Origin: Variovorax paradoxus NBRC 15149
GTDB lineage: Bacteria; Pseudomonadota; Gammaproteobacteria; Burkholderiales; Burkholderiaceae_C
Assembly: GCF_001591365.1 (NCBI RefSeq)
Contig: NZ_BCUT01000001.1
Span: forward strand, 434,001 to 498,000
DNA length: 64,000 nucleotides
Direction of reading: 5' to 3'
The notes under the pieces were generated by a model. It was not told the origin of the DNA. It searched no databases and was given only the letters and a program-made list of their open reading frames with translations. Below, one piece after another: positions 8,091-37,490 of the stretch. The position numbers and the translations under genes are program-made. The first letter of the stretch is position 1. Each line of letters starts with the position of its first letter.

Positions 8091-8091
8091 G

Positions 8092-15888: not shown

Positions 15889-15906
15889 AGACCGTCGGGT
15901 CGGTCT
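15889..15906. promoter_or_regulatory. TetR-type operator, site A (before Liv module 1)
   Basis: Palindrome AGACCGTC-GG-GTCGGTCT, 8+2+8 with one mismatch between arms, flanked by ATT and TTTTAAT. It lies between the reductase stop (15977) and the first Liv gene (15848), where it would overlap the promoter of the transport/ligase operon. The same motif occurs in three other control regions of this island. Confidence 0.75.
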
Positions 15907-15976
15907 TTTAATGGCTCGATTGTGTCGTGCTGCAGACCGGCCGGCACTAGTGCTTACCCGGGTCGGAATGGAATCG

Positions 15977-17233
15977 CTATGCGCAAGCCAGTGGCGCCAG
16001 GTGTTGCTTGAGCGCCAGCGACGCATCCGCCAGCTGGGCCGCATCGATGCGAGATGCCGCCGCCACCAGCCTCTTGGCCACCATGAAGTCGGCCGGCCGA
16101 TTGACTGCATCGGCGGCGATCACGCAGCCGTCGCGCAGGTAGAAGGCGATGAAGCTGCGCTCCTGCGGCTTGCCGCGCAGCACGCATTGTTCGAAGCCAG
16201 CCGACAGGCCGACCATCTGGAGTTTCAGATCGTATTGATCGGACCAGAACCACGGCACGGCATGGTTGGGCTTGGGCTTGCCGCAAAGGCCCGAGGCCGC
16301 CGCACGCGCCTGCTCGAGCGCATTGGGCACCGACTCCAGCCGCACACGCCGCCCGTAGAGCGCATGGTCGTGCACCGTGCAGTCGCCGGCCGCCACGATG
16401 TCAGGGTCCGAGGTGACGCCGAGCGCATCCACCACGATGCCACCGTCGACGGCGAGCCCGGCGGCCGCTGCCAGCTCTGCATTGGGCAGCATGCCCACCC
16501 CCACCACGACGCAATCCGCCTCCAGCCGCTGGCCGTCGCTGCAGATCACGGCCCGCACGCGGCCACACTGGTCGCATTCGACGCGCTGCACGGCGACACC
16601 GACCCGGAGGTCGACACCCGCATCGCGGTGCACCTCTGTGTAGAAGGCCGACAGCGCTTCGCCCGTCACGCGGGCCAGCACGCGCGGCTGGGCTTCCAGC
16701 ACCGTGACGTGGGCGCCCAGCTTGCGCGCCGAGGCGGCGACCTCCAGGCCCACGTACCCGCCGCCGATCACGACCAGGCGGGTGCCTTCGGCCAATGCCT
16801 CGCGGATCGCCTTCGCGTCCGCCTGCGTGCGCAGGACGTGCAGGTTGGCGGGCGTCGCATCCGCCACGAGTCCTTCGACCGCCAGCTGACGCGGACGGCC
16901 GCCGGTGCACAACGCGAGCTTGGCGTAGGCCAGCGTCGAGCCGCCCTGCAGTGTCACGGTCTTCGCGGTTGGGTCGATCGACGCGGTGCGGATGCCCAGC
17001 CGCACTTCGATGTGCGATTTCTCGTACGTTTCCTGCGGCCGCATCGTCAGCGACTCGGGCGTCGCCGTTCCTTGGAGGAAGGCCTTGGACAAAGGCGGCC
17101 GGTGGTAAGGCAGACAGGGCTCCTCGCCGAGCAGCACGATCGGCCCGGGCCAGCCGAGCTGGCGAACGCCTATGGCGAGTTCCGAGCCGGCGCTGCCGGC
17201 CCCGACGATCAACAGGGTATCGGTTGATTGCAT
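15977..17233 (-). CDS. Putidaredoxin reductase-like FAD-dependent ferredoxin reductase
   Basis: 418-residue NAD(P)H-ferredoxin reductase of the CamA/RedA2 type. The FAD-binding motif LLIVGAGSAGSELA is at residues 6-19, followed by LPYHRPPLSK, typical of the family. A second Rossmann motif (VVIGGGYVGLEVAA) sits in mid-protein and the FAD-end motif DIVAAGDC in the C-terminal third. The ATG at 17233 has AGGGA upstream. It probably passes electrons to the putidaredoxin-like ferredoxin at 37577, about 20 kb away, and on to the Rieske oxygenase. The two loci share the same operator motif (sites B and D). No P450 gene, the other usual partner, is in the window. Confidence 0.88.
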   Translation of the reverse strand: MQSTDTLLIVGAGSAGSELAIGVRQLGWPGPIVLLGEEPCLPYHRPPLSKAFLQGTATPESLTMRPQETYEKSHIEVRLGIRTASIDPTAKTVTLQGGSTLAYAKLALCTGGRPRQLAVEGLVADATPANLHVLRTQADAKAIREALAEGTRLVVIGGGYVGLEVAASARKLGAHVTVLEAQPRVLARVTGEALSAFYTEVHRDAGVDLRVGVAVQRVECDQCGRVRAVICSDGQRLEADCVVVGVGMLPNAELAAAAGLAVDGGIVVDALGVTSDPDIVAAGDCTVHDHALYGRRVRLESVPNALEQARAAASGLCGKPKPNHAVPWFWSDQYDLKLQMVGLSAGFEQCVLRGKPQERSFIAFYLRDGCVIAADAVNRPADFMVAKRLVAAASRIDAAQLADASLALKQHLAPLACA

Positions 17234-17269
17234 GATTTTCCCTAGGCTTTCGGTGCGTGAGGACGTTAT

Positions 17270-17287
17270 AGTCCGACTAGTCGGTCT
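17270..17287. promoter_or_regulatory. TetR-type operator, site B (reductase / tetR divergent region)
   Basis: Palindrome AGTCCGAC-TA-GTCGGTCT, one mismatch between arms, framed by TTAT and AATAATA. It lies 36 bp from the reductase ATG and 24 bp from the leader ORF in front of tetR, so one bound dimer could control both directions and give autoregulation. Confidence 0.8.
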
Positions 17288-17311
17288 AATAATAGGGAAT
17301 CGGAGGCTTCG

Positions 17312-17398
17312 ATGCAAGCAGGGGATGCGCCTGCTTGCCATCGACAAGATCGGCTTCAGAACCCGAGGCGCATCCGCAACCAACTGGCCATGGCATGA
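17312..17398 (+). CDS. 28-codon leader ORF coupled to tetR
   Basis: A small reading frame begins at ATG 17312 with a good GGAGG six bases upstream and ends at TGA 17396-17398, which overlaps the tetR ATG at 17395 as ATGA. The tetR start itself has no visible ribosome-binding site, so ribosomes finishing this frame could start tetR by coupling. The peptide is polar and basic, with no recognisable family. It could also be untranslated leader that happens to be open, so its reality rests on the ribosome-binding site and the overlap. Confidence 0.4.
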   Translation: MQAGDAPACHRQDRLQNPRRIRNQLAMA

Positions 17399-18024
17399 CA
17401 CGAGTACGCGCAGACGATTACGGCGACAAGAAGCAATCCATCCTCGACCGCGCGGCTGTGCTGTTCGCGCGCAAGGGCTTCGAACTGACGACCATGGTGG
17501 ACGTGGCCGCTGCGTGTGGCACGTCCAAGTCGCGCCTTTATCACTACTTCCCCGGCAAGGAAAACCTGCTGTTCGAGATCGTGCGCGAGCACATCGCCGG
17601 CCAGGCCAGCGAACTCACCGACATCGTGGCCATGCCGATCTCAGCGGAAGAACGTTTCCAGCGCTACGTGGATGCGTTTGTCAGGCGGGCCGCACACTCG
17701 CGCGACGAGCACCTCGTGTTGATGAACGACCTCAAGTTCCTGCCCGCGGCGCATCGCAAGCTGGTGCGAAAGCTCGAGACGCAGTTGGTCGACCTGATGA
17801 CCGGCCTTCTCAAGGAAATCAACCCTGCGCTGATGCTGCCGGACAAAGTGCAGACTCCTTACGCCATGCTGCTGTTCGGCATGATCATCTGGACCTTCAC
17901 CTGGTACCAAAAGAGTGGCGCAATCGCTCCGGCCGAACTCGCCGCGCGCATCTCGCACCTGTTCGTGCATGGTTTCAAGGACAGCGGTTTTGCCGACGGC
18001 TGCCTGAATAACGGCGGACGCTAA
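17395..18024 (+). CDS. TetR/AcrR family transcriptional regulator of the catabolic island
   Basis: 209-residue TetR-family repressor. The N-terminal helix-turn-helix spans residues 10-55 (SILDRAAVLFARKGFELTTM, then CGTSKSRLYHYFPGKENLL), followed by an all-helical ligand domain with a hydrophobic helix near MLLFGMIIWTFTWY. ATG 17395 is preferred over an upstream TTG at 17335 because the leader frame at 17312 ends exactly there. It is divergent from the reductase gene, with operator B between them. The matching palindromes before the Liv operon, the SnoaL/crotonase gene and the Rieske operon make it the likely regulator of the whole island. The ligand is probably an acyl-CoA of the pathway (inference from TetR regulators of acyl-CoA catabolism). 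Confidence 0.9.
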   Translation: MTRVRADDYGDKKQSILDRAAVLFARKGFELTTMVDVAAACGTSKSRLYHYFPGKENLLFEIVREHIAGQASELTDIVAMPISAEERFQRYVDAFVRRAAHSRDEHLVLMNDLKFLPAAHRKLVRKLETQLVDLMTGLLKEINPALMLPDKVQTPYAMLLFGMIIWTFTWYQKSGAIAPAELAARISHLFVHGFKDSGFADGCLNNGGR

Positions 18025-18090: not shown

Positions 18091-18978
18091 TCAGGCGTAG
18101 CCCATGAGACAGTCCTGGGTGACTGATGCCACCAGCACGCCATGGCGGTCATGCACGCTGCCGATCGACAGTCCGCGCCCCGCCACGGCGCAGGGGCTGT
18201 GGCTGTCGAAGTGCAGCCAGTCGTCTGCTGCGAATGGACGGTGGAACCAGATGCAATGATTGAGGCTCGCGACGTACAGCCGCCGGTCGCTGTCGAGGTC
18301 TCTCACATGCGAGCCGAGGCTGCTGAAATTGAGCCACCAGTCCGACATATAGGCGAATGCCGCAGCGTGCATGCCTTGGGTCGCTGGCAGTGGATGACGC
18401 GCCTTGAGCCAGTACCTCAGACGCAGGGTTGCCGTATCGGGCGCCACCTGCGACTCCATATCGGGCACGCGGAAGTCAATGCACGCCTTCTCGCGCAGGG
18501 AATAGCCGCCGAGTCGCTTGAGGCGAGACTCCCAGGGCAGCGACGCATCCGGAAGCGGTGGCACGTCGTCAGGATTCGATTCCAGCGCCTGGATCGCCAC
18601 CTGGTGCTCAGGCGCGTCCAGTGGCAATGCGAAGGTGACCTGCGCATCGAACAGCGAGCGACTGCCCTGCGTGCCACGGACGTGTCGCGATGTGAAGCGC
18701 TTGCCGTCCTGCAAGGGCGTGACCTCGAAGTCAATGGGCTGGTCCGGCACGCTGCCCTGCAGAAACATGAACTGCATCGCGGTCGCCTCGCGGTCGGGCG
18801 GGGCGCTCATCGATGCAGCCATCAACGCCTGCCCCAGACTCTGCCCGCCGAAGGACCGGCCGTTCAGGTTCACATCCCCATGGCGGTTGCGATAGTGCCC
18901 GTGCCCCTCGCGCGCTTGCGTCAATGTCAGCAGCGCCGGCAGGTCGGCCTCGTTCCAGGGCTGGAGGCTATCGGCCAT
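18091..18978 (-). CDS. TesB-like acyl-CoA thioesterase-fold protein (double hotdog)
   Basis: 295-residue protein with the two-hotdog TesB architecture: GHYRNRHGDVNLNGRSFGGQ-type N-terminal half and SLNHCIWFHRPF and SVTQDCLMG in the C-terminal half. TesB thioesterases hydrolyse acyl-CoA with an Asp-Thr-Gln set. By eye the Gln is kept (VTQD), but the usual Asp of the DHxxWFHR segment is Asn here, and the Thr position seems to be Pro. It may therefore be slow, altered or non-hydrolytic. The gene overlaps the upstream SnoaL/crotonase gene by 11 bp and is convergent with tetR. The SnoaL gene has operator C in front, so both should respond to TetR. Confidence 0.75.
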   Translation of the reverse strand: MADSLQPWNEADLPALLTLTQAREGHGHYRNRHGDVNLNGRSFGGQSLGQALMAASMSAPPDREATAMQFMFLQGSVPDQPIDFEVTPLQDGKRFTSRHVRGTQGSRSLFDAQVTFALPLDAPEHQVAIQALESNPDDVPPLPDASLPWESRLKRLGGYSLREKACIDFRVPDMESQVAPDTATLRLRYWLKARHPLPATQGMHAAAFAYMSDWWLNFSSLGSHVRDLDSDRRLYVASLNHCIWFHRPFAADDWLHFDSHSPCAVAGRGLSIGSVHDRHGVLVASVTQDCLMGYA

Positions 18979-20191
18979 GGAACACCGGCTTGCGCTTGCC
19001 GATGAAGCTCGCAATGGCGTCGGTTGCGTCCGTGGTGGCAGCAGTCCGGTGCAAGGCCTCCGTTTCAGCGCCGAGTTGTTCGGACAAGGTGGCCCCCAGG
19101 GACTCCCGGTACAGGCGCCGCACTTCCCCATAGGCTTGGGTCGGTCCTTCTGCGAGGCGCTCCGCGCTGGCGCGTGCGTTGCGCAGCAGATCGGCCAGCG
19201 GCACCACACGATTGACCAGGCCCCAGTCCAGCGCTTCGTCCGCGTTGAGGACGCGCCCTTCCAGGTACAGCTCCGCAGCCCTTCGCATGCCCACCAGACG
19301 CGGGAGAAACCAGGAATTCGAGCCATCCATGGACAGCCCGAGTGCGCCGAAGCCCAGCGCAATCTTCGTGTTCTCCGCGGCCACCACGATGTCGGCGCAG
19401 TACATCAGCCCCAGGCCGCCTCCGGCGGTCGCGCCATGCACGGCAGCCACGATGGGCACATGCAGGCGGCTGAAGGTGCGCAAGGCCTCGTGGTACGGGC
19501 CGGTCATTGCACGCAGCAGGCCCGGCAGTTCGCCGTCCTTGGCTTTCGACAGAAAGGCGAGGTCGCCTCCCACTGTGAATGATTTTCCGTTGCCAAGCAG
19601 CAGCACGGCCCGGATCGACAGGTCGTTGGCGCATCGCCCGGCCACGATGCACAGTTCGTCCGCCATGTGTGCATTGATCGCGTTGTGGGCATCCGCCCTG
19701 TTCAAGCAGATCGTCGCGAGCCCATCCTGCACGTCGAACGTCAAGGTACGCAAGGCCTGCGGCAACGGCGGTGCGCCGCTCACCGAAGCCTGGACCCATC
19801 GTTCGCTGTCCGTGAGTTGGCTCAGTCCATTGATCTTCCGGTCGGCGAAGCTCAGGATGTGGATGAACTCGGCGTCGAGCCTTCCGCCTCCATTGCGGGC
19901 CTCGCCGGTGTACCTGCCCTGCACCAGGAGGCGCCCATCGTCGAGCCCATGAAAGCTCGTCGGTTGGGCCTGCGCAATGAAATTCTTCGCGATCTGACCC
20001 CAGAATTCCCGGCGCATCGCATTCGCGCCTTGATAGGTTCCACCAAGGCCGAACGGCAGCCCCTCGGTGGTCCGGCCCGTGAATTCGGGATGCAAGAGCG
20101 CATCCAGAGCTTCGCGGTCACCCTTGGCCAAGGCTTGGTACAACTGGCGTGCGCGTTCAATGCGGGCGGCTTCGTCCATGTGTTGTTGCAT
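18968..20191 (-). CDS. SnoaL-like domain fused to enoyl-CoA hydratase/isomerase-like domain
   Basis: 407-residue two-domain protein. Residues 1-130 look like a SnoaL/NTF2-type cone (begins with an ARQLYQALAKGDREAL helix, later FTGRTTEGLPF and LLVQGRYTGEARNG). Residues 140-400 form a crotonase domain (VGGDLAFLSKA oxyanion loop, GATAGGGLGLMYCADI). The two glutamates of true hydratases are not in their usual places, so it may be an isomerase, a hydrolase or a non-standard crotonase. The ATG at 20191 has GGAG seven bases upstream. It starts a two-gene unit with the TesB-like gene, with operator C 54 bp upstream. Fusion of these two domains is unusual. Confidence 0.8.
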   Translation of the reverse strand: MQQHMDEAARIERARQLYQALAKGDREALDALLHPEFTGRTTEGLPFGLGGTYQGANAMRREFWGQIAKNFIAQAQPTSFHGLDDGRLLVQGRYTGEARNGGGRLDAEFIHILSFADRKINGLSQLTDSERWVQASVSGAPPLPQALRTLTFDVQDGLATICLNRADAHNAINAHMADELCIVAGRCANDLSIRAVLLLGNGKSFTVGGDLAFLSKAKDGELPGLLRAMTGPYHEALRTFSRLHVPIVAAVHGATAGGGLGLMYCADIVVAAENTKIALGFGALGLSMDGSNSWFLPRLVGMRRAAELYLEGRVLNADEALDWGLVNRVVPLADLLRNARASAERLAEGPTQAYGEVRRLYRESLGATLSEQLGAETEALHRTAATTDATDAIASFIGKRKPVFHGR

Positions 20192-20244: not shown

Positions 20245-20262
20245 AGACCGTCTTGTCGGTTT
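20245..20262. promoter_or_regulatory. TetR-type operator, site C (before SnoaL/crotonase gene)
   Basis: Palindrome AGACCGTC-TT-GTCGGTTT, two mismatches between arms, framed by ATAT and ATTAAA. It is positioned to cover the promoter of the SnoaL/crotonase-thioesterase pair. It is the weakest of the four copies but matches site A exactly in its left arm. Confidence 0.7.
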
Positions 20263-20503: not shown

Positions 20504-21205
20504 TCAACCGCCCTCTTCGTCGCCCTCGCCGACCCACACCACGCAGTCGCTGGCCGGTGCGCGCGCGGTGCGAAAGCTGTTCGCCGGATGCGATGCATCG
20601 GCCATTCCGAAAGAAATGCCGCACACGATGCGGCGCTCGTGTGGAATGTCGAGGTGCGCACGAAGCACGGCGGGATGCGCAGTCACCGCCGCCTGCGGGA
20701 TCGCCGCAACGCCCACCGCCTGCGCAGCTGTCAGAAAGTTGGCGACGTACGCGCCGCAGTCGATCGCACCATAGGTGCCGAGCGCCTCGTCTGCCGTCAC
20801 GATGGCCAGATGCGGCGCCCCGAACAACCTGAAGTTTTCGCTCGCCTGCCGCGCCGATGCGACGCGGTCGCCCTCTGCGATGCCGACCGCCGCATAGAGA
20901 CCCATGGCGCACTTGCGCCGACGCTCGCGGTAGATGCCGTTGTACGCACGCGGCCATGACAGGTCGGGCGCTGGCACGTCGGACGCGACGGCCACCAGCG
21001 CCGTGCGCAGCCGCTCCAGACGCGGACCACTGGCAATATAGACCTGCCACGGCTGCGCGTTGCACCAGGAGGCGGTGCGCTGGGCCGCATCGAGCACGTG
21101 CTCGATCTGCTCGCGTGCGAGCGGGGCGGGCAGGAACGCCCGGCAGCTGTAGCGTTCGCTCAGCAGCGAACGTAGCGTGTCAAATGCAAGGGAGGCTTCA
21201 GCCAT
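20504..21205 (-). CDS. Nitroreductase family FMN oxidoreductase
   Basis: 233-residue nitroreductase-fold protein. Family features include the N-terminal SERYSCRAFLP region (FMN phosphate contact), SWCNAQPWQVYIASG, and the C-terminal ARAPASDCVVW tail. Such enzymes bind FMN and reduce enones, quinones or nitro compounds with NAD(P)H. The ATG at 21205 has GAGG upstream. It is the last gene of the Rieske/beta-oxidation operon, sits between a CaiB gene and a CaiB remnant, and may serve as an ene-reductase in the pathway (inference). The substrate cannot be read from the sequence. Confidence 0.85.
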   Translation of the reverse strand: MAEASLAFDTLRSLLSERYSCRAFLPAPLAREQIEHVLDAAQRTASWCNAQPWQVYIASGPRLERLRTALVAVASDVPAPDLSWPRAYNGIYRERRRKCAMGLYAAVGIAEGDRVASARQASENFRLFGAPHLAIVTADEALGTYGAIDCGAYVANFLTAAQAVGVAAIPQAAVTAHPAVLRAHLDIPHERRIVCGISFGMADASHPANSFRTARAPASDCVVWVGEGDEEGG

Positions 21206-21291
21206 GCGCGAACCTCTCGTGCACACGCAGTGCAAACTTCATTTCCATGATGTTCTTCATTGGGTTTTGGAACTTGCAAGGACGCCGGAAA

Positions 21292-22506
21292 TCACCCGCC
21301 GACCACGCCTCTGTCATGCAGACGACCGAACTCGGCGCTGTCCACGCCGAGCACCGAACACAGCACCTGCTCCGTGTCTGCACCCAACCGCGGGGCCGGC
21401 TGCACGGGACGTCGCGCCACGGCAGAGAAATCCAGCGGCAGGCCTGGCGCGACCAAGTGGCCCACGCCGGGCTGATCGACCTCGCCGAACATCGGATTGG
21501 CCAGTGAACAGGAGGCGTCTTCTCTCACGAGCTGGCCGACCGTCTGGTATTTGCCCCAGCAGACGCCATGCCGATCGAGTTGCGTGGCCACGTCCGCGAA
21601 CGGCCTGGCACCCATCCACCGTGCGACCACGGCCGCGATCTCTTCGCGCGCGATGAAACGGTTGCCCTCGCGCGCAAGATCGAGCCCGGTGCGCTGCGCA
21701 ATCACGGCGATCTCGTCTCCCATCGCCAGCGCATCGCAGAGCGAACGCCATTGCTTTCCTGTGAGGCCGACCACCATCACGCGCACGCCGTCCGAGGTGG
21801 CGAAGTCGTGGCCGAACGCACCGAAAAGATGGTTGCCGTGACGACCCCTCGCCTGCCCCAGTTGAGCCTCCGCCAGAAAGCCCAGGCTGCCTACGGCCGC
21901 AAGCGCCACGTCTTCGAGCGCCAGCTTCACGTGCTGTCCCGCGCCCCGGCGCCGCCGATGCCGCTCCGCCGCCAGCAACCCTGCGGCTGCCATCTGTCCC
22001 GTCACAAGATCCCAGGCCGGCAGTACATGGTTGACAGCCGTTTCGACCGCTTCACTGCCAGTGAGGTAAGGCAGGCCCATGCGGGGGTTGATCGTGTAGT
22101 CTACGGCCGAACCGCCATGGCGGTCCCCCTGCACGGTCAGCTGGATCAGGTCGCTGCGCCGCTCCCGCAGCTTCTCATGATCGAGCCAGCCGCGCGGCGG
22201 GAAGTTCGTGAGCAACATGCCCGCATCCTCGCCGGGGGCAGCGATGAGTGCCATCGCGAACTCCCGGCCCTCGGGCGAGCCGAGGTCGAGGGTGACAGAT
22301 TTCTTGCCCTTGTTGAGCCCGGCCCAGAACAAGCTGGTGCCGTCCCGGGTGACCGGCCAGCGCCGGTAGTCCAGGCCACCGCCCAGCGCATCGATGCGGA
22401 TCACCTCCGCCCCCATCTGGGCCAGCGTCATGCCGCCGAGCGGCGCCGCCACGAACGCGGCGGCCTCGACCACGCGCATGCCCTCCAGCAGGTTCGCGTT
22501 TTCCAT
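21292..22506 (-). CDS. CaiB/BaiF family CoA-transferase, 2-methylfumaryl-CoA isomerase-like
   Basis: 404-residue class III CoA-transferase-fold protein. The N-terminus (RVVEAAAFVAAPLGGMTLAQ, then GAEVIRID, DYRRWP and WAGLNKGKKSV) resembles mesaconyl-CoA C1-C4 CoA-transferase (Mct), which moves CoA within one molecule. The likely catalytic Asp is near residue 166 in LPAWDLVTG. The ATG at 22506 has GAGGAG upstream. The gene lies 11 bp after an acyl-CoA dehydrogenase with the long N-terminal extension of methylsuccinyl-CoA dehydrogenase, the partner of Mct-type enzymes in C5 dicarboxylate metabolism. A simple CoA-transferase on the pathway acid is the alternative. Confidence 0.82.
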   Translation of the reverse strand: MENANLLEGMRVVEAAAFVAAPLGGMTLAQMGAEVIRIDALGGGLDYRRWPVTRDGTSLFWAGLNKGKKSVTLDLGSPEGREFAMALIAAPGEDAGMLLTNFPPRGWLDHEKLRERRSDLIQLTVQGDRHGGSAVDYTINPRMGLPYLTGSEAVETAVNHVLPAWDLVTGQMAAAGLLAAERHRRRRGAGQHVKLALEDVALAAVGSLGFLAEAQLGQARGRHGNHLFGAFGHDFATSDGVRVMVVGLTGKQWRSLCDALAMGDEIAVIAQRTGLDLAREGNRFIAREEIAAVVARWMGARPFADVATQLDRHGVCWGKYQTVGQLVREDASCSLANPMFGEVDQPGVGHLVAPGLPLDFSAVARRPVQPAPRLGADTEQVLCSVLGVDSAEFGRLHDRGVVGG

Positions 22507-22517
22507 CGCGCCGCTCC

Positions 22518-24221: not shown

Positions 24222-24232
24222 GGTGCGACGCC

Positions 24233-28801: not shown

Positions 28802-30361
28802 TCAGGCGACCTGGCGGCCGCGGCCAGCCCAGTGCGACTCGCGCAGCTTGTTCTTCTGGATCTTTCCTGCGCCGGACAACGGAAGCTCCATGCGCACTTC
28901 GACGCTGCGCGGGCACTTGTAGCCCGCGATGTGCGTCTTGCAATGGGCGATCAGCTCCGCTTCCGACACGCTCTGGCCCGGCTTGAGCACCACCACCGCA
29001 TGCACGCTCTCGCCCCACTTCTCGCTCGGGACGCCGATCACCGCGCACGCCGCAATGGCCGCGTGCTTGAGGACGGCGTTCTCGACCTCGGCCGAATAGA
29101 CGTTCTCGCCGCCGCTGACCACCATGTCCTTCATGCGGTCCACGATGAAGATGAAGCCTTCTTCGTCCATGTAGGCACCGTCGCCTGAGTGCACCCAACC
29201 GTTTCGCAGGGTGGTGGCGTCGTCTTCCGGGCGATTCCAGTAGCCCGTCATGGCGGACATGCCGCGTGCGGCGATCTCGCCCACCGTGCCGCGTGGCAGT
29301 TCCTTGCCGTCGGCGCCGACGATCCTGATCTCGGCCAGCGCCGCCGCACGCCCGGCCGAACGCAGCTTGCCCAGCGCGCGCCCCTCGGCCGTGTGGTAGT
29401 ACGGCGGCAGGTAGCTCACGCAACCCGAGAGTTCGGTCATGCCGTAGCCCTGCATCAGGGCCAACTGCGGGAAAGCCGCGGTCAGGCGGTCGAGCAGCGT
29501 TTCGGCGATGGGCGATGCGCCGTACACCATGAACTTCAGGCTGCCCAGATCGAACGTGTTGAACTCGGGGTGGTCCAGCACCATCTGGATCATGGTCGGC
29601 ACCAGCAGCGTGTCGGTCACTCGCTCGTTCTGCACCGTCTCCATGAACTGCAGCGCGTTGAAGGTCGGCAGCAGAACGTGCGTACCGCCGGCAATGAACT
29701 GCCACCAGACGCCCATGGCGCCCGCGAGGTGAAAGACCGGCGCGGCGTGCAGGTACACCGGGCCCACGGGGTAGCCCATGGCCAGCCGATTGAGGGCCGC
29801 ACCCATGAGGCTGTCATGGGACGTCATCACGCCCTTGGGGAAACCCGTGGTGCCGCCGGTATAGAACACCGCGGCCAGGTCCGAGCCGCCTGCGCCCACG
29901 TCGTCCACGGGGTCGGACTGCGCGATCAACTGCTCGTACTCGACCATGCCTGCGGGACATGCTCCATTGCCGAGATAGATGATCTCGCGCAGCGTGCGCG
30001 ATTCGGCCCGCACCTCGTCCATCAGCGGCAGATGGGCGTCGTCCACGAAGAGCTGCGTGGTCTCGCAATCGTTGAACGAGAAGGCGAGCTCCTTCGCGCT
30101 CCATCGCGTGTTGGCCGGATTGATCGCCGCGCCGAGCCAGAACACTGCCATGAAGACTTCAAGGTAGCGGTCCGAGTTGAGAGACACGATGCCGACCCGG
30201 TCGCCCTTCTTGACACCGAGGCTGCGCAGGCCGCCGGCCAGGTGCTGGACGCGGCCGACAAACTCGGCATAGGTCTGGCGGCGCCCATCGGCGACCGTTG
30301 CGATTCGATGCGGGTTCTGCTGCAAAGCGCGGTGGATGGATTGGGTTAGGCTGACGGTCAT
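28802..30361 (-). CDS. AMP-dependent acyl-CoA ligase (operon copy)
   Basis: 519-residue ANL-family ligase of the fatty-acid/aromatic-acid type, shorter than the two Liv-linked ligases. ATP loop VFYTGGTTGFPKGVM, later GYGMTELSG, WVHSGDGAYMDEEG and DRMKDMVVSGGENVYSAEVE; the C-terminal Lys candidate lies in LSGAGKIQKNKL. The ATG at 30361 begins MTVSLTQSIHRAL. It probably activates either the original acid or a later free-acid intermediate. Three ligases in one regulon suggests more than one CoA activation step or substrate. Confidence 0.88.
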   Translation of the reverse strand: MTVSLTQSIHRALQQNPHRIATVADGRRQTYAEFVGRVQHLAGGLRSLGVKKGDRVGIVSLNSDRYLEVFMAVFWLGAAINPANTRWSAKELAFSFNDCETTQLFVDDAHLPLMDEVRAESRTLREIIYLGNGACPAGMVEYEQLIAQSDPVDDVGAGGSDLAAVFYTGGTTGFPKGVMTSHDSLMGAALNRLAMGYPVGPVYLHAAPVFHLAGAMGVWWQFIAGGTHVLLPTFNALQFMETVQNERVTDTLLVPTMIQMVLDHPEFNTFDLGSLKFMVYGASPIAETLLDRLTAAFPQLALMQGYGMTELSGCVSYLPPYYHTAEGRALGKLRSAGRAAALAEIRIVGADGKELPRGTVGEIAARGMSAMTGYWNRPEDDATTLRNGWVHSGDGAYMDEEGFIFIVDRMKDMVVSGGENVYSAEVENAVLKHAAIAACAVIGVPSEKWGESVHAVVVLKPGQSVSEAELIAHCKTHIAGYKCPRSVEVRMELPLSGAGKIQKNKLRESHWAGRGRQVA

Positions 30362-30402
30362 GATTTGCGCGTGGACGAAAGTGGGGCGAACGGGGGGCGC
30401 GC

Positions 30403-31605
30403 TCAGGCGCCTTCGAGGCCGACGATGGAAACCGAACAGACGTTCTGCGAAGGCTGGCCGCCGAGGTTGTGCGTCAGACCGACGGAGGGATTGCTCAGCT
30501 GGCGGGGGCCCGCCCTGCCCTGCAGCTGCAGGTACATCTCGTAGAGCATGCGAATGCCGCTGGCGCCGATCGGGTGGCCGAAGCACTTGAGGCCGCCGTC
30601 GATCTGGCACGGGATCTTTCCGTCGGCATCGAACATGCCGTCGAGCACGTCCTTCACGCCGCCGCCCACATCGGACAGGCCCAGGTCTTCCATCGTCACC
30701 AGCTCAGTGATCGAGAAGCAGTCGTGCACCTCGGTCATGCTGATCTGCTCGCGCGGCCTGGTGATGCCGGCCTCGGCATAGGCGCGCTGGGCCGCGATGC
30801 GCGCGGTGTGGACGTAGCTTCCGTCCCATTCGTTGGACTGCAGCTCCCAGCCGTTGGAGGTCACGATCTGCAGCGCCTTGAAGGTCACGAGGTCGCGCTT
30901 GCCCAGGCTGCGTGCGATGTCGGGCCGCGTGACGATCACGGCGGCCGCGCCGTCGGACACGCCCGCGCAGTCGAACAGGCCCAGCGGCTCGGCGATGATC
31001 GGGGCCTTCAGCACCGTCTCTTCGCTCACGGCCTTCTGGAAGTGCGCCTTCGGGTTCTTCGCGCCGTTAGCATGGCTCTTGACCGAGACGTGCGCAATCG
31101 CCCGCTTGAGCAGCGCCGCATCGACGCCATGCTTGCTGCTGTAGGCCGAAGCCAGCTGCGCGAAGTTGGCCGGCGCCACCGCATTGGGATACCACTGCGG
31201 AATGTAGGTGCCGACCGTGGCCACCGGCAGGCCGCCGTAGCCGGTGTCCTTGAGCTTTTCCACCCCCAGCGCTATCGCGATGTCGCACGCACCGGCGGCC
31301 ACGGCGTACACCGCTGCGCGGATGGCCTCGGAGCCGCCGGCGCAGAAGTTCTCCACGCGCGTCACCCCGATGTTGGGCAGGCGCAGCGCGATGCCCATCG
31401 GTGTGCCGCCGCGGCCGGTGCCGACGTCGTCCATGTGGGTCGAGAACCATGCGGCGTCGAGCTGCCCGGGCGCAATGCCGGCGTCCGCCATGGCCTCGTT
31501 GTAGGCCTCGACCATGAGGTCCTCCGGGCTTGCGTCCCAGCGCTCGCCGAACTTGCTGCAGCCCATCCCGAGGATGGCGACCTTGTCTTTGATACCTGCG
31601 GCCAT
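30403..31605 (-). CDS. SCP2-type thiolase (operon copy)
   Basis: 400-residue thiolase of the SCP2/acetyl-CoA acetyltransferase family. Nucleophile segment ENFCAGGSEA, the EVHDCFSITE motif, and GHPIGASGIRM near the end. It cleaves 3-oxoacyl-CoA or condenses acyl groups. It lies 3 bp downstream of the HMG-CoA-synthase-like/DUF35 gene. In archaea and bacteria, SCP2 thiolases often form complexes in which a DUF35 protein bridges the thiolase and an HMG-CoA-synthase-like enzyme, so a physical complex is likely here. The start has GGAG upstream. Confidence 0.88.
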   Translation of the reverse strand: MAAGIKDKVAILGMGCSKFGERWDASPEDLMVEAYNEAMADAGIAPGQLDAAWFSTHMDDVGTGRGGTPMGIALRLPNIGVTRVENFCAGGSEAIRAAVYAVAAGACDIAIALGVEKLKDTGYGGLPVATVGTYIPQWYPNAVAPANFAQLASAYSSKHGVDAALLKRAIAHVSVKSHANGAKNPKAHFQKAVSEETVLKAPIIAEPLGLFDCAGVSDGAAAVIVTRPDIARSLGKRDLVTFKALQIVTSNGWELQSNEWDGSYVHTARIAAQRAYAEAGITRPREQISMTEVHDCFSITELVTMEDLGLSDVGGGVKDVLDGMFDADGKIPCQIDGGLKCFGHPIGASGIRMLYEMYLQLQGRAGPRQLSNPSVGLTHNLGGQPSQNVCSVSIVGLEGA

Positions 31606-31608
31606 GAT

Positions 31609-33084
31609 TTACTCCGATCCTTTTTCCGTTGCGGCAGCGCGCACCGGGGTGGCTTTCCAGAAATAGCGGGTGTAGCCGCGGCGGTCGTCGATGTCCTTGA
31701 TGCGGAACGTCATCTCGACCGAACTGCCGGCGTCGATCTCGCCCTCGCCGGTATCGGTGAACTCCATGAGCACGCGACCGCCGCCGTCGAAGTCGACCTG
31801 CCCGTAGCGATGCGGCGGCGAACGGTGGAACGACAGGAACTCGGCCGACCAGCTCAGCACGGTGCCGCGGCGCTCGGCCAGCTTGTAGGGCTTCTGCGTG
31901 TCCTGCAGCGGCTTGCCTTGGTCGTACGAGATGCGCGACGGCGGGAAGTGCACGCTGCCGGTCACCTCACAGCGGCCGGCGACCAGGCCCAGGATCGCGC
32001 TGCGATGGCGGTAGGCGGTGGACAGTGCGGTCTTGCGGTCCTGCTCGCCGCGCATGCCGCGCTCGAGGTCCAACTGTTCCTTGAAAGACAGGAAGCGCGT
32101 GTACGCCGTTTCTTCGAGGCCGCGGCGGATCCATTCGCTCACTCCCTTGGCCGGACGGAAGTTACGGACCTCGTCGGTGACGCGGAACATCATCGCCTGC
32201 GCCCCGCTGCCGAACTGGGCCAACAGGATGTGCTGGCCGGGCACGGCGCGCTCGAGCACATGGGCCAGCAGCAGCATGCCGTGCGACAGGCCGGTGTCGC
32301 CCACGCGCGAGGCCAGCGAGTCGACCACCGCCTCTTCGCGCACGCCGCAGGTCTTGGCCAGTTGCCGGTCCATCTTCTGGAAGGTGGTCGGAAAGATGAA
32401 GTGGTCGATCTGCGTGGCTTCGACCTTCGCCTCGGCCAGTGCAGCCTTCACGGCCCGTGGCACGAGCTTGGTGATGCCCTCGTCGCGCACCCAACGCTCT
32501 TCCCAGGCGTAGTCGATGTCCTCGCCTGTGGCGCGGAAGTGATCGACAAAATCGACCGTGACCGTTCCGGCGCCCAGGTACTCGGCCAGCACCTTGTCGC
32601 GACCCACCTGGAGCGCGGCGGCGCCGTCACCGAAGTCCAGTTCCTGCGAACTGGCCGCACGTGTCTTGCGGTTGTCGGATGCCAGCACCAGCACATCGCC
32701 GCCGCCGCCGCGCACCTGCGCCACGGCCTGCGCGAGCGCTGAGAGGCCGGCGCGCTGCGAGCCGGTGACATCAGCGGCCTGCACGTCGTCGCGCAAGGTG
32801 AGCGCTTCGCACACCACGCCGGCATTCAGTCGCTCGGCGAAGGGCAACGTGCCCGATGCCAACAGCACGCTGGCGATGCGCGAGCGATCGTCCGCCGCGC
32901 CGAGGCAGTCGCGCGCTGCGGCCACCGCCATCGTGATGCTGTCTTCGTCCCAGTTGGCAAAAGCGCGCGTGCCCTTGGCAGCGTTGACGAACTGGGGGGC
33001 GTACCAGGCATTGGCCTCGGCCGCCGCGCGGCGAACAAGCCGCAAGCGGGGCACGTAGCCGCCGTATCCGACGATTCCGAACAT
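31609..33084 (-). CDS. HMG-CoA synthase/KAS III-like protein fused to DUF35 OB-fold domain
   Basis: 491-residue fusion. Residues 1-340 follow the thiolase-fold HMG-CoA-synthase/KAS III pattern (MFGIVGYGGYVPRLRL start, ELDFGDGAAAL, HGMLLLAHVLERA, LAQFGSGAQAMMF). Residues 350-480 are a DUF35 OB-fold with only one Cys left of the usual zinc ribbon (GRCEVTGSVHFPPS). At the position of the nucleophilic Cys the segment reads DVTGSQRAG, so the Cys appears to be replaced by Gln. It would not then form an acyl-enzyme in the normal way. It lies next to the SCP2 thiolase. Likely a partner or a decarboxylase-like variant; function not established. Confidence 0.75.
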   Translation of the reverse strand: MFGIVGYGGYVPRLRLVRRAAAEANAWYAPQFVNAAKGTRAFANWDEDSITMAVAAARDCLGAADDRSRIASVLLASGTLPFAERLNAGVVCEALTLRDDVQAADVTGSQRAGLSALAQAVAQVRGGGGDVLVLASDNRKTRAASSQELDFGDGAAALQVGRDKVLAEYLGAGTVTVDFVDHFRATGEDIDYAWEERWVRDEGITKLVPRAVKAALAEAKVEATQIDHFIFPTTFQKMDRQLAKTCGVREEAVVDSLASRVGDTGLSHGMLLLAHVLERAVPGQHILLAQFGSGAQAMMFRVTDEVRNFRPAKGVSEWIRRGLEETAYTRFLSFKEQLDLERGMRGEQDRKTALSTAYRHRSAILGLVAGRCEVTGSVHFPPSRISYDQGKPLQDTQKPYKLAERRGTVLSWSAEFLSFHRSPPHRYGQVDFDGGGRVLMEFTDTGEGEIDAGSSVEMTFRIKDIDDRRGYTRYFWKATPVRAAATEKGSE

Positions 33085-33086
33085 GG

Positions 33087-34025
33087 TCAGGACTTTCTCG
33101 TGATGGAAGGGGTTGAAAAAAGGCTTCGAACGAAGGCACCAATGGCGCGCCGGGCGTCGCGCGCTTCGGGCAGGTCGTCAGGGAATTGCTGGAAGACGTG
33201 GATCATTCGGTCCCACACCTCCAGGTGCACATCGACACCGGCCGCCTTCGCCTTCGCGGCGAAGTCGACCGAATCGCTGAGCACCGTCTCGCGGTCGCCG
33301 ACCTGGATCAGCAGCGGCGGCAGGCCGTGCAGTTCAGCGAACAGAGGCGACACCCACGGATGCCGGGGATCGCCGTCGGCGCCGAGGGCGTTGCGCGCCA
33401 TGGCGAGGATCATTGGACGTTGGTGAATCGGGTCGCTCTCGGCGCGCGAGACATAGCTCTCGCCCGCGGCCGTCATGTCAGTCCAGGCGGACATCAGCAC
33501 CGCGCCCGTGGGCAGTGCGCGGCCCGCGTCGCGCAACTTGATCAGGGCGGCCAGCACGAGGCTGCCACCCGCCGAGTCGCCCGCGAAGACGATGTCGACG
33601 GGCTGCGTGCCCTGTGCGATCAGCCAGTCGTAAGCGGCGCAGGCATCGTCGAGCGCGGCCGGATGACGATGCTCGGGGGCAAGTCGATAGTCCAGGCCCA
33701 GCACGCGGCAGCCTGTGGCTTCGGAAATCCCCGCCATCAGCTCGCGGTGCGAATGCACTGACCCGACCTGGAAGCCGCCGCCATGAAAGTAGAGCACCAC
33801 GCGCTGCGGATTCGCCTTTGCCGCGGCGATCCACTCGGCCTTCAGGCCGCCGATGGTCACAGCCTGCACCGCAGCCTCCAAGGGCTGGCCGCCGAAGAGC
33901 GCGTCCCAATCGGCGCGCATCTGTGCCACCGTGGTGTTCCGGCCCCAGCTTCGGTAGACCGACAGCACGCGGCGGATAACGCCATCGAGCTGTTCGTCGG
34001 AAGCGGTGATCCTGCGCTCGCTCAT
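33087..34025 (-). CDS. Alpha/beta hydrolase of the hormone-sensitive-lipase (HSL) type
   Basis: 312-residue cytoplasmic esterase. The HSL oxyanion motif YFHGGGFQVG lies near residue 80, the nucleophile elbow is GDSAGGS near residue 150, then a candidate Asp in QVGDRETVLSDS and a His in DRMIHVFQQFP. The ATG at 34025 overlaps the SDR stop as ATGA. These enzymes hydrolyse short acyl or aryl esters and lactones, so it could open a lactone or remove an ester group from the pathway substrate. Substrate unknown. Confidence 0.88.
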   Translation of the reverse strand: MSERRITASDEQLDGVIRRVLSVYRSWGRNTTVAQMRADWDALFGGQPLEAAVQAVTIGGLKAEWIAAAKANPQRVVLYFHGGGFQVGSVHSHRELMAGISEATGCRVLGLDYRLAPEHRHPAALDDACAAYDWLIAQGTQPVDIVFAGDSAGGSLVLAALIKLRDAGRALPTGAVLMSAWTDMTAAGESYVSRAESDPIHQRPMILAMARNALGADGDPRHPWVSPLFAELHGLPPLLIQVGDRETVLSDSVDFAAKAKAAGVDVHLEVWDRMIHVFQQFPDDLPEARDARRAIGAFVRSLFSTPSITRKS

Positions 34026-34750
34026 TGGCCGCACCCCATGCCGCCTGAAACACCCAAGGTCTCGCCGGTGATGAACGCCGCAGCGTCGGAAGCCAGGAAG
34101 GCGACCGCGGCAGCCACTTCCTCGGGCGTGCCAAGCCGACCCGCCAGCGTGGCGCCCTTCATGGCGTCCAGCAGCTTGTCGCCGCCAGCGGCCACGGCTT
34201 CGCGCAGCAGCGGCGTGTCGATCGGCCCGGGCGCGATCACGTTGGCCGTGATGCCCTTGCGGCCGTTCTCGCGCGCGATGGAACGCGTGAAGGCGATCAC
34301 GCCGCCTTTGGCCGCGGCATACACCGCCGCGCCGCGCGAACCCATGCGGCCGGCCTCGGAGGCGATATTGATGATGCGGCCGAAGCCCGCCGCCTGCATT
34401 GCGGGCAAGGCCGCGTGCGTGGTGGCGAACACCGATTCGAGATTGACGGCCAGCAGCCGGCGCCAGTCGGCGATTTCGGTCTTGGTGAAGTAGGCATGCT
34501 GGTCGATGCCCGCGTTGTTCACCAGGACCTGATGCGGCCCGGTGTCGAGCACCGTGCGCTGCACACGCTCAAGGTCCGCCACGTCAAGTTGGACTGCGAT
34601 GGCCCCGATCTCAGCAGCCAGAGCCTGCGCGCTCGCGATGTCCAGGTCGGCAATGATCACACGCGCGCCGTCGGCCGCCAGCCGCCGCGCAATAGCAGCG
34701 CCGATGCCCTTGGCGCCGCCGGTGAGGAACACGCTGTGCATCGTGCTCAT
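34022..34750 (-). CDS. Short-chain dehydrogenase/reductase (SDR)
   Basis: 242-residue classical SDR. Cofactor motif LTGGAKGIGAAIA at residues 8-20, an Asp after the second strand (ADLDIA) that suggests NAD preference, NNAG near residue 82, catalytic Ser in NIASEAG and YAAAKGG with Tyr and Lys. The final GETLGVSGGMGCGQ matches the family end. Possible roles: dehydrogenation of the cis-dihydrodiol made by the Rieske oxygenase, or of a hydroxyacyl-CoA. ATGA overlaps on both sides place it firmly in the operon. Confidence 0.88.
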   Translation of the reverse strand: MSTMHSVFLTGGAKGIGAAIARRLAADGARVIIADLDIASAQALAAEIGAIAVQLDVADLERVQRTVLDTGPHQVLVNNAGIDQHAYFTKTEIADWRRLLAVNLESVFATTHAALPAMQAAGFGRIINIASEAGRMGSRGAAVYAAAKGGVIAFTRSIARENGRKGITANVIAPGPIDTPLLREAVAAGGDKLLDAMKGATLAGRLGTPEEVAAAVAFLASDAAAFITGETLGVSGGMGCGQ

Positions 34751-35586
34751 TGCCCGGTGAAGTGCGGCGCGCGCTTCTCTATCACCGCGGCAAGGCCTTC
34801 GAGCGCGTCCTTCATGCCCGCCAGTTGCGCCTGCGTGCGGTTCTCCTCGGGCATCGCGGCCTCGGCGCTGAGTCCAAGCCCATTCCACAGCAAGCGCTTG
34901 GTTGCCGCAAGCGCGGCCGGTGGGCCGCTCGCAAGTTGGCGCGCGAGCGACAGCGCGTCGTCTGCCAGTGACGCATCGGGTACCACGCGCGAGATCAGCC
35001 CTATGCGCAACGCCTCCGCGGCCTCGATGACCGGATTGAACAGCACAATGTCCATTGCCTTGCGAAAGCCCACCAGGTGCGTGAGCGTCACGGTCACCCC
35101 GGCGTCGGGCACCATCGCCACGCGGATGGCGCCCGCCATGAAGCGGCTCGATTCGCCTGCCACGACCACGTCGGACGAACACACCAGCCCCATGCCACCG
35201 CCGCCGGCTGCAAAGCCCTGCACGGCGCAGATGACCGGCGCGTTGAGCCGCATCAGCAGTGACACCACCAGTTGCAAGTAGGAAGTCGCCATGCGGATGT
35301 AGTCGGGCAACGCCTCGCCCTTTGATAGGAAGGTGTGGACGTCACCCCCGGCGCAGAAGTTCTTCCCCTCGCCCGTGATCAGCACAACGCGGACACGACC
35401 ATCGCCGTGCACCTGCATCAGCACCTCGTGCAGCGCCTTGAGCACCTCCATGTCCAAACCGTTCGAGGCCTCGGGCCGGTTCAGCCGCACGTGGGCCACG
35501 CCATCGGCATGCAGTTCCAGCCGCACCGGTCCTTTGCCCACCAGCACCTCGATCGCGGTGTCGTCGCTTCGCTTGTCCACAGTCAT
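34747..35586 (-). CDS. Enoyl-CoA hydratase/isomerase family protein (no canonical glutamates)
   Basis: 279-residue crotonase. NFCAGGDVHTF oxyanion loop, GFAAGGGGMGLVCSSDVVV, and MVPDAGVTVTLTHLVG in the region where hydratases carry Glu. Both usual glutamates appear absent, as in the proteins at 27949 and 18968. It resembles PaaG-like isomerase forms (inference). It has an AGGAG ribosome-binding site before ATG 35586 and directly follows the oxygenase beta-subunit gene. Confidence 0.85.
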   Translation of the reverse strand: MTVDKRSDDTAIEVLVGKGPVRLELHADGVAHVRLNRPEASNGLDMEVLKALHEVLMQVHGDGRVRVVLITGEGKNFCAGGDVHTFLSKGEALPDYIRMATSYLQLVVSLLMRLNAPVICAVQGFAAGGGGMGLVCSSDVVVAGESSRFMAGAIRVAMVPDAGVTVTLTHLVGFRKAMDIVLFNPVIEAAEALRIGLISRVVPDASLADDALSLARQLASGPPAALAATKRLLWNGLGLSAEAAMPEENRTQAQLAGMKDALEGLAAVIEKRAPHFTGQ

Positions 35587-35623
35587 TCTTTTTCTCCTGC
35601 CTCGCGGCGTGGGGATCGGGGAT

Positions 35624-36109
35624 CTAGATCAGGAAGGCCATCGAATAGAGGGCTCGTTCGTTGTTGGTCAGCACCACCTTCTTGCCGGCCATGCGCAGCA
35701 CGCCGCCTTCGCGGCGCAGCTTGTATTCGTTGCGCGAACCCCAGAGCGTGTCGCCGCGCGCATGCGCTTCGAACACGATCGCGTTGGCGGTGACCACCAG
35801 ATCGGTTCCGTCGTTTTCGAGCACCTCCACGTTGGAAATCACTCGACGCAGCGGCGAGCGCGGCGACTGGCTGTATCGCTTGCCGGTATGGAACTGGCGC
35901 ACCCGCAGCGCAATGCGCGAGCGGTTGTCATAGATGATGGACATCTCCTGCTCCGGATCGCCGGCCTCGCCGTTGGCGGGAATCCAGTAGACCCCGTCGT
36001 CGGTCCACAAGGCCTCCCAGGCGTCGTACTCGTGGTTGTCCTGAAGCCGCCCTTCGCGGTAGATGAACTGCGACACCTCGTGGTGAAGCAGCAGGTCTTC
36101 GACATTCAT
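35624..36109 (-). CDS. Aromatic-ring-hydroxylating dioxygenase beta subunit
   Basis: 161-residue small subunit of a Rieske oxygenase, NTF2/SnoaL fold. Family features: DNHEYDAWEALWTDDGVYW near residue 30, DNRSRIALRV, and the SNVEVLEND segment. It has a structural role, holding the alpha3beta3 hexamer together. The ATG at 36109 has GGAGG eight bases upstream inside the alpha-subunit end, and starts 2 bp after that stop. It makes the alpha gene a two-subunit oxygenase of the benzoate/biphenyl general type. Confidence 0.88.
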   Translation of the reverse strand: MNVEDLLLHHEVSQFIYREGRLQDNHEYDAWEALWTDDGVYWIPANGEAGDPEQEMSIIYDNRSRIALRVRQFHTGKRYSQSPRSPLRRVISNVEVLENDGTDLVVTANAIVFEAHARGDTLWGSRNEYKLRREGGVLRMAGKKVVLTNNERALYSMAFLI

Positions 36110-36111
36110 GT

Positions 36112-37401
36112 TCACGCCGCCTCCATTAGCGATCGGTAGTGGCGCCAGATGCCGCGCGTTGGCGTCTCGTCCGTGGCGTCGCCGATCAGATAGCCGTTTT
36201 CGTCCGTACGCTCGCGGTGCTTGCCACGCCCCAGATACAACCACTCAGGGCGCTTCGCCTGGACACCGAGCTGGGTTCGCTCGTACATCTCGGCGTCGTC
36301 CGCCAACAGGAAGCCGGCCGGGCCGACCGATCCCATGGTCTGCTGACGCAGGCGACGGTTCAGATCGGGCGCGCCCTTGAACTGCAGCGCCGTGACGTGC
36401 TGCACCGATTCATTGAACGCCAGCGGCTGGATCACGAAGATCTGGATCTCCGCGATGAAGAGATTCGGGTAGATCATGACGTGCGGCGTGCCGTCGATCA
36501 TGATCTTGCGGGCCTGCTCCACGCCGTAGGCGGCTTCCATACGCCGGGTGTACTCGGGCAGCCGGTCGGCCGTGGTATTGAACCAGCTCATCGGGATGTC
36601 GCGCTTGCGGAACTCGGGCCGCAGATCGTTCTCCGAATGGCCTTGGCCGAAGTAGCGCGAGACCGCCGTCGAGTCGCTGCTGTAGAGCGAGCCGATCCCG
36701 CTCTTCGCGACTTCGAAGATCGACGCGTGCACGAACGACGGGTGATAGCCGTCGGTCTCGTTCTCGACCAGGAATTTCCAGTTGGACTTGACCTTGTGCT
36801 TCAGGAAGCCGGCCGTGACCTCCACCTCGCCCTCGGGCGAGGTCAGGCACAGCGCATCGATGGCCGCCATGGCCGCGCCGAGGTGCTCCTCCAACGAAGG
36901 CCCCTCTTGCGCCATCGAGCCGAAGACGAAGCCCTTGTAGGAAGCGACGCGCGCCACCTTGCCGAGCCCGAGCTCCGAGCGATCGACGCCCTCGTAGCCC
37001 GAGGGAAACGGATAGCCGCGCAGCGCGCCGTCGTTGGTGAACGTCCAGCCGTGGTACGGGCACGTGAACGAACGCGCCGACCCTTTCTCGGTCATGCACA
37101 CCCGGTTGCCGCGGTGCGGACAGCGGTTGTGCAGAAGATGGATCCGGCCTTCGCGGTCACGCGTCATGAGGATCGGCTCGGGTCCGATCGACTTCATCAC
37201 GTAGTCGTTGGGCTGGGGCAGTTCGCTCTCATGGCCGACGTAGACCCAGGTGCGAAACCAGATCTTGCGCAGCTCTTCCTCGAAGATTGCCGGGTCGGTG
37301 TAGAGCGAGCCGTGCACCTCGTTGTCTCGGACCAGATCGCCCCACGCACGGGGCTCGGAATTGGCGCGGGCGATGGGGATCACCGGGGCACAGGTACTCA
37401 T
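36112..37401 (-). CDS. Aromatic-ring-hydroxylating dioxygenase alpha subunit (Rieske)
   Basis: 429-residue catalytic subunit. The Rieske [2Fe-2S] ligands are Cys94, His96, Cys114 and His117 (CPHRG and CPYHGW). The mononuclear iron site has His220 and His225 with bridging Asp217 (ETDGYHPSFVH), and the third ligand is Asp368 or Asp369 in LLADDAEMYE. It adds O2 to an aromatic ring, giving a cis-dihydrodiol, or monooxygenates. The ATG at 37401 has AAGG upstream. It heads the 15-gene operon behind operator D. Electron donors are probably the ferredoxin at 37577 and the reductase at 15977, which would be a Batie class IIA-type system. The exact substrate is not readable. Confidence 0.9.
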   Translation of the reverse strand: MSTCAPVIPIARANSEPRAWGDLVRDNEVHGSLYTDPAIFEEELRKIWFRTWVYVGHESELPQPNDYVMKSIGPEPILMTRDREGRIHLLHNRCPHRGNRVCMTEKGSARSFTCPYHGWTFTNDGALRGYPFPSGYEGVDRSELGLGKVARVASYKGFVFGSMAQEGPSLEEHLGAAMAAIDALCLTSPEGEVEVTAGFLKHKVKSNWKFLVENETDGYHPSFVHASIFEVAKSGIGSLYSSDSTAVSRYFGQGHSENDLRPEFRKRDIPMSWFNTTADRLPEYTRRMEAAYGVEQARKIMIDGTPHVMIYPNLFIAEIQIFVIQPLAFNESVQHVTALQFKGAPDLNRRLRQQTMGSVGPAGFLLADDAEMYERTQLGVQAKRPEWLYLGRGKHRERTDENGYLIGDATDETPTRGIWRHYRSLMEAA

Positions 37402-37472
37402 GTTGTCACCTTCAGAAGAGTGTTTCTGCAAGTCGCAAAAGCATTGCGATGCGTTGTCGTTGCATCGATAAT

Positions 37473-37490
37473 AGTCCGACGGGACGGTCT
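37473..37490. promoter_or_regulatory. TetR-type operator, site D (Rieske operon / ferredoxin divergent region)
   Basis: Palindrome AGTCCGAC-GG-GACGGTCT, two mismatches between arms, preceded by ATAAT. It lies between the divergent oxygenase alpha gene (ATG 37401) and ferredoxin gene (ATG 37577). Its left arm is identical to that of site B. One bound TetR dimer could repress both directions. Confidence 0.75.

Follow-up and report, generated by a model that had tools for sequence, protein, structure and literature searches.

What controls the catabolic genes around a Rieske oxygenase in Variovorax paradoxus NBRC 15149, and through which DNA sites, is the question raised by a 64,000-nucleotide stretch of contig NZ_BCUT01000001.1 (C1:434001-498000; hereafter the window, that is, the whole stretch analysed). 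The host genome comprises 6,664,268 bases in 16 contigs. In a preliminary description of the window it was proposed that four 18-bp palindromes, each in an intergenic control region, are operators through which one TetR-type regulator controls uptake, coenzyme A (CoA) ligation, oxygenation and beta-oxidation. It is concluded here that the window sites are very probably operators of the TetR-type protein encoded among them (TetR1), a predicted promoter-blocking repressor of the cluster.

The palindromes were borne out: pattern AGWCCGWCNNGWCGGTYT matches exactly at window positions 15889, 17270, 20245 and 37473, 18 bp each, and every site falls in a gap separating called genes (calls were made with a codon-usage script, names were taken from Pfam and NCBIfam, and operon limits were inferred from spacing and direction). 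The pattern had 0 matches across 100 dinucleotide-preserving shuffles of the window. The predicted operators lie before the livF operon, termed Liv module 1 (15889..15906, with a site before livF in 16 of the neighbourhoods compared), between the ferredoxin reductase gene (minus strand) and tetR1 (plus strand) (17270..17287), before the SnoaL-crotonase/thioesterase operon (20245..20262) and between the Rieske operon (minus strand) and the ferredoxin gene (plus strand) (37473..37490). By our gene calls, the operons behind these sites hold 26 genes, close to the figure of about 25 given earlier.

On scanning the 6.66 Mb host genome, only the four window sites were found as exact matches, so that the motif is not scattered over unrelated positions. 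One mismatch is present at two places, C1:429441 and C6:337633. The latter sits within a predicted open reading frame (ORF) and was for this reason dropped from the regulon; the remaining two-mismatch places in the window, 30429 and 45259, are likewise intragenic (called ORFs 26 and 40). The site at C1:429441, some 4.5 kb to the left of the window, precedes a second TetR gene (tetR2), and therefore the likely number of operators is five, within 42 kb; the original set of four was real, if short by one. An extended pattern, TARNCCGNCNNGNCGGNYTA, has four exact places genome-wide, all in the cluster (C1:429440, 451269, 454244 and 471472), and at one mismatch it recovers the Liv site (449888) together with two unrelated places (C1:46480 and C1:1087579). 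In the gap before Liv module 2 (1193-8964) the one site listed has four mismatches, and hence direct control of that module is not claimed.

The sites accompany TetR1 across genomes. Among the 101 genus and 399 family genomes sampled (5 common to both, 495 in all), TetR1 at E <= 1e-60 was found in 8, 9 and, combined, 15 genomes, and the same 15 are all those with at least two exact AGWCCGWCNNGWCGGWCT sites (2-5 each). The 480 genomes without TetR1 comprise 20 with one exact site and 460 with none; the forward pattern reaches two sites only where TetR1 is encoded. The relatives carrying the cluster belong to Variovorax, Pseudorhodoferax, Hydrogenophaga and Macromonas or are metagenome-assembled genomes. 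Distant TetRs served as controls, and their 32 loci (541 kb) contain no site with one mismatch or fewer.

The neighbourhoods of these relatives were compared as a set of 23 stretches (716 kb, 86% coding). Of twelve ortholog loci, one (L055) was annotated but excluded from the later neighbourhood comparisons, and five (L047, L050, L051, L052 and L058) were swapped for longer stretches taken as the same genomes. Under a strict overlap rule, 57/57 exact, 13/14 one-mismatch and 22/30 two-mismatch sites do not touch any called gene; a looser definition allowing 30 bases of gene end gives 57, 14 and 23/30, the sites G468:4950 and G001:23219 being lost under the strict rule. The gene caller had faults, as it missed a tetR1 that is present in G468, mis-started the window's ferredoxin and truncated several genes. 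Across genera the sites recur before livF, in the reductase/tetR1 gap and in the gap between the Rieske alpha-subunit gene and ferredoxin, and they recur also in the acyl-CoA dehydrogenase/tetR2 gap; the site before the SnoaL-crotonase gene is also seen in G054 (one mismatch) and G414 (two mismatches). The half-sites are conserved, and the operator centre and outer flanks vary. A rearranged copy on plasmid 3 of Variovorax sp. SRS16, examined afterwards, carries two near sites by tetR and, in the spacer of its Rieske promoter (TTGACT, TATTAT), an exact one.

The sites were also placed relative to predicted promoters. The Rieske-operon promoter reads TTGACA-N18-TATTAT (37468..37497, minus strand; 11/12 hexamer positions) and the operator exactly fills its 18-base -35/-10 spacer, which holds for 16/16 RHO-alpha loci with a site. 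Boxes TTGACA and TATTAT matching at 11/12 positions occur in 14 of these 16 loci, and the others score 10 and 9. A score of 11 is reached at no more than 16 of the 116,590 intergenic positions in these neighbourhoods, and 15 of the 16 are at operators: the 14 Rieske loci and one operator in a split operon of G252, with one other place making up the number. The predicted promoter of the divergent ferredoxin gene, TTGCGA-N17-GATAAT (37444..37472, plus strand), abuts the operator, and does so in 12/13 scored relatives, the window's own copy being outside the 13. For the reductase, TTGCAT-N17-TATTAT lies directly upstream of the 17270 operator on the reductase strand, with the -10 box at the same position in 11/16 loci; a promoter-like TTAATA-N18-TATACT spans the 20245 operator. 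At the predicted Rieske promoter, such placement is the layout of a polymerase-excluding repressor.

The protein itself (tetR1, 17395..18024, plus strand; TetR_N and TetR_C_24) belongs to the TetR family, with 58.4 bits to PF00440 (cut-off 24) and 75.1 to PF17932 (cut-off 26.4). Its structure model (mean confidence, pLDDT, 84.8) has the TetR fold, with Z scores of 25.3 to 3ccy and 23.4 to PfmR, followed by a group of equal rank that includes DarR, AibR with isovaleryl-CoA, KstR2 and FadR. All 17 curated NCBIfam TetR equivalogs listed for it (e.g. Bacillus FadR, KstR and AcuR) fall under their cut-offs, the best being NF050111 (64.3 against 250). From the fold group and the MbdR system discussed below, a CoA-thioester inducer is plausible.

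From the sites, their co-occurrence with TetR1 and the promoter geometry, we infer the following mechanism. A TetR1 dimer would bind the palindrome AGWCCGWC-NN-GWCGGWCT and block RNA polymerase, at the Rieske operon by occupying the -35/-10 spacer and at the ferredoxin and reductase promoters by lying just after the -10 box. The genes repressed in this way would be tetR1 itself, the Liv operon for uptake and CoA ligation, and those of the three-component Rieske oxygenase and of the CoA-thioester pathway; TetR1 would be released most likely by a CoA thioester of the imported acid. In the control region between tetR2 and the acyl-CoA dehydrogenase gene, left of the window, TetR2 would act through a diverged version of the operator.

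The earlier view of the regulon stands as far as it places operators at the regulator gene itself and in front of the genes for uptake, CoA ligation, oxygenation and beta-oxidation. It fails in assigning one regulator to four sites, since a paralog, TetR2, 47% identical to TetR1, is encoded a short way to the left of the window, with an operator variant of its own and a divergent operon for beta-oxidation. TetR2 (scored as present at E <= 1e-40) accompanies TetR1 in most neighbourhoods long enough to show it. The average identity of the two is 59% over the first 62 residues and 36% over the remainder. Residue 47, in the recognition helix (model helix 45-51), is His in 17/20 TetR1 rows, a set that includes a third paralog from G386; the others are Arg in the window's own protein, Leu in L048 and Asn in the G386 paralog. 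In TetR2 it is Met in 16/16 rows. The sites differ as well: among intergenic sites within two mismatches (51 main-class and 16 on the tetR2/acyl-CoA dehydrogenase side, with 27 before other genes excluded), 48/51 and 1/16 are exact, respectively (p 3.6e-11, relatedness ignored), and the TetR2-side departures consist chiefly of A replacing G at position 2 and G replacing T at position 7. The G386 paralog (G386:C1:1271821-1272414, L154) lies near two oppositely oriented copies of CGACCGACGCGACGGTTT, and a third operator class is possible there.

Several points weigh against assigning the sites to TetR1 in this manner. The nominal p of the association, 6e-29, ignores relatedness, and the genomes are kin. 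TetR1 absence was judged from the top first-look candidates only, up to 30 per genome in the genus and 7 in the family. A reversed-pattern control matched in 6/101 genus genomes, once each, and in 48/399 family genomes, eight of them twice; single sites hence mean little, and pairs are possible by chance. Exceptions exist at tetR1 itself: the reductase-tetR1 gap of L048 holds only a three-mismatch site, no site within two mismatches precedes tetR1 in L053, and the tetR1 site of G252 carries two mismatches. No consistent sigma-70 geometry was found at livF (12/16 without a call) or tetR1 (5/17 without a call). As TetR1 and TetR2 co-occur in most cluster genomes, association alone cannot assign the binder; and as DarR, a c-di-AMP binder, ranks level with the CoA-thioester regulators, the ligand of TetR1 cannot be read from its fold.

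A rival explanation is that all five operators are read mainly by TetR2, or by both paralogs alike, with TetR1 minor or auxiliary. The closeness of the DNA-binding parts noted above fits it, as does the finding that, within a genome, the two proteins have 7-9/12 residues in common in and near the recognition helix. G094 has a main-class site free of mismatches in front of its tetR2, and two TetRs with overlapping operators, PfmR and SbtR, are reported in Thermus (PMC7022988). The explanation is nevertheless quite unlikely, because G252 encodes TetR1, lacks a TetR2 at E <= 1e-40 and retains exact sites of the main class, and because the TetR2-side sites are systematically different. G085 points the same way, as it has two TetR2-level matches (44-46% to TetR1), no TetR1 and a single exact site, though the genome is only 88% complete. 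On account of G252 and the class split, the main operator class most likely belongs to TetR1, and the operator would probably be a tag read by two related repressors, with TetR2 possibly reading the variant class and the two TetRs perhaps answering different ligands.

It could also be supposed that the TetR protein is an activator or anti-activator and that expression is driven by the LuxR-type, MalT-like regulator whose gene is located between tetR2 and Liv module 2. A protein bound between the near-consensus -35 and -10 boxes of all 16 Rieske loci would, however, exclude polymerase, and the stretches fetched around tetR2 from several operator-keeping relatives, e.g. G386, G074, G094 and G104, yielded no LuxR/MalT gene call, which leaves this explanation very improbable. 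Short repeats are able to spread within multi-gene clusters, and the palindromes might be chance or a mobile repeat devoid of regulatory function; given the empty shuffles, the conservation of half-sites against a variable centre and flanks, and the location of all exact sites outside called genes, this is hardly credible. Repression by TetR1 is the reading retained. Beyond it, a joint proposal is put forward tentatively, and may well prove wrong: two TetR paralogs would gate one pathway through two signals and two operator subclasses, the DNA-binding domain being largely kept and the ligand domains diverged, so that full induction would need two CoA intermediates. Operator positions 2 and 7 would co-vary with residue 47 (His or Met). 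The gated pathway would be a route, as yet undescribed, by which a cyclic acid is processed via CoA thioesters, and would combine the Rieske oxygenase, a fusion of an HMG-CoA-synthase-like protein (HMGCS) to DUF35 acting with a thiolase, and a mesaconyl-CoA-isomerase-like transferase, its core being mostly present on a Rhodococcus plasmid too.

As for the genes concerned, the Rieske operon comprises 15 genes that read leftward between 37383 and 20504. The beta and alpha subunits (35624..37383, minus strand; PF00866, PF00355 and PF00848) are followed by 13 genes (20504..35586, minus strand; Pfam/NCBIfam names) for a nitroreductase-like protein (weak NCBIfam matches only), a mesaconyl-CoA-isomerase-like CoA transferase, an acyl-CoA dehydrogenase, an FAD oxidoreductase, HCDH, three crotonases, a CoA ligase, a thiolase, the HMGCS-DUF35 fusion, a hydrolase and an SDR. 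"Orphan", as the oxygenase had been called, is a loose term, since genes for a beta subunit, a ferredoxin and a ferredoxin reductase lie behind these same operators. The ferredoxin (2Fe-2S; 37577..37897, plus strand) was identified by reading the ORF and from its position, which is kept in relatives; it has no NCBIfam match, and the gene divergent from the Rieske operon on the SRS16 plasmid is annotated as "2Fe-2S iron-sulfur cluster-binding protein". The reductase (15977..17233, minus strand) has Pyr_redox_2 and Reductase_C domains, with AndAa as its best NCBIfam match, under cut-off. Liv ABC transporter module 1 (9203..15755, minus strand) consists of livF, livG, a CoA ligase, livH, livM and a substrate-binding protein, and a TesB-type thioesterase and the SnoaL-crotonase fusion occupy 18091..20191 (minus strand; Pfam/NCBIfam). 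Left of the window, tetR2 (C1:429565-430143) is divergent from an acyl-CoA dehydrogenase operon that also holds crotonases, a thiolase, a FadJ-like gene, a CoA transferase, DUF2889 and ETF genes.

The CoA transferase (21292-22506) scores 535 bits against the NCBIfam mesaconyl-CoA isomerase, under the cut-off of 725, and is near the mesaconyl-CoA C1-C4 isomerase 8apq (512 bits), and this may point to CoA being shifted within the molecule of a dicarboxylate. The HMGCS-DUF35 fusion (31609-33084), in which the second part is a DUF35/OB domain, adjoins the thiolase in a catabolic setting and has sequence likeness to the archaeal thiolase/HMGCS/DUF35 complex (6esq) and PhlA. Much of the enzyme core (Rieske, HMGCS-DUF35, thiolase, SnoaL-crotonase and FAD oxidoreductase) recurs with other TetR genes on a megaplasmid of the actinobacterium Rhodococcus opacus PD630 (NZ_CP080955.1, L181), with identities to the window of 60% for Rieske alpha, 48% for thiolase and 33% for HMGCS-DUF35. 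The PD630 and Sulfitobacter plasmid clusters have three-mismatch operator matches at best, none within two. In several relatives an operator also precedes a TRAP-transporter operon, whose Pfam names come from G094 alone; there (L170:11675-18749), the operon behind an operator variant encodes a TRAP transporter, an APH-type kinase and a CoA ligase, and in several further relatives operators are followed by genes of similar size. To the right of the ferredoxin, nearly 1 kb (37900-38880) is devoid of a confident gene, with one ORF in which HTH_32 is just over cut-off, and this is perhaps transposase remains at the cluster edge.

The degradation pathway is apparently undescribed. Comparison of its enzymes with NCBIfam and PDB named no substrate, and a literature search, abscisic acid included, gave no substrate result; in the openly licensed literature no title on this cluster was found, no search with the operator sequence itself being made. 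Ibuprofen-type (ipf) and resin-acid routes were considered as candidates. The best PDB sequence matches of Rieske alpha include 7yls and 8h2t, which we take to be IadDE. This match raised auxin (iad) as a substrate, which was not adopted because the regulator and gene set differ from iad. The regulon is experimentally ready, with a conserved operator, a named predicted repressor, promoter geometry and a bounded gene list, and its control is a possible route to identifying the pathway substrate. The TetR1/TetR2 pair is, in addition, a natural case for how a duplicated repressor splits an operator.

Several known systems can be set beside this one. One is the MbdR regulon of Azoarcus sp. CIB, in which a TetR repressor uses 18-bp palindromic operators overlapping promoters to control its own gene as well as two operons, one for a substrate ABC transporter and a CoA ligase and one for a CoA-thioester pathway, its inducer being the first CoA thioester of the pathway (PMC4424350). 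The layout and the target types are those predicted here: operators lie in the regulator's own control region and at target promoters, and they overlap core promoter elements, though not consistently at livF and tetR1. MbdR differs in its operator, ATACN10GTAT, in serving an anaerobic pathway and in being the only TetR described there (PMC4424350). The operator here is AGWCCGWCNNGWCGGWCT, not ATACN10GTAT, and so TetR1 does not qualify as an MbdR ortholog; its structural similarity to MbdR (Z 17.9, 14% identity) is lower than to others.

Best ranked by fold among named regulators is PfmR of Thermus thermophilus HB8, at the Z score given above. Its earlier operator, TACCGACCGNTNGGTN, holds the same ACCGAC as the half-site here, and SbtR and PfmR were reported on the same promoters (PMC7022988). 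PfmR differs in that it controls fatty-acid genes and that its later in-vitro consensus is centred on GACCGATCGGTC, without a two-base centre (PMC7022988). KstR2, AibR and Bacillus FadR are high-ranking folds, several of them solved with CoA thioesters (5k7h, 5k7z and 3whc), at only ~18-22% identity to TetR1. The iad auxin-degradation locus of Variovorax shares the genus and a Rieske alpha/beta pair (PMC10374108) and is tied to MarR regulators in the title of PMC9613470, unlike the TetR and other gene set found here. FadP and LiuQ are predicted betaproteobacterial TetR regulons of acyl-CoA catabolism, derived by comparative genomics, and FadP also occurs in Comamonadaceae (PMC5343134); both resemble the present system in TetR control of acyl-CoA catabolism in betaproteobacteria. 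The local mode of TetR control predicted here is, by these analogies, already well known, matching MbdR in general and PfmR/SbtR where overlapping repressors are concerned.

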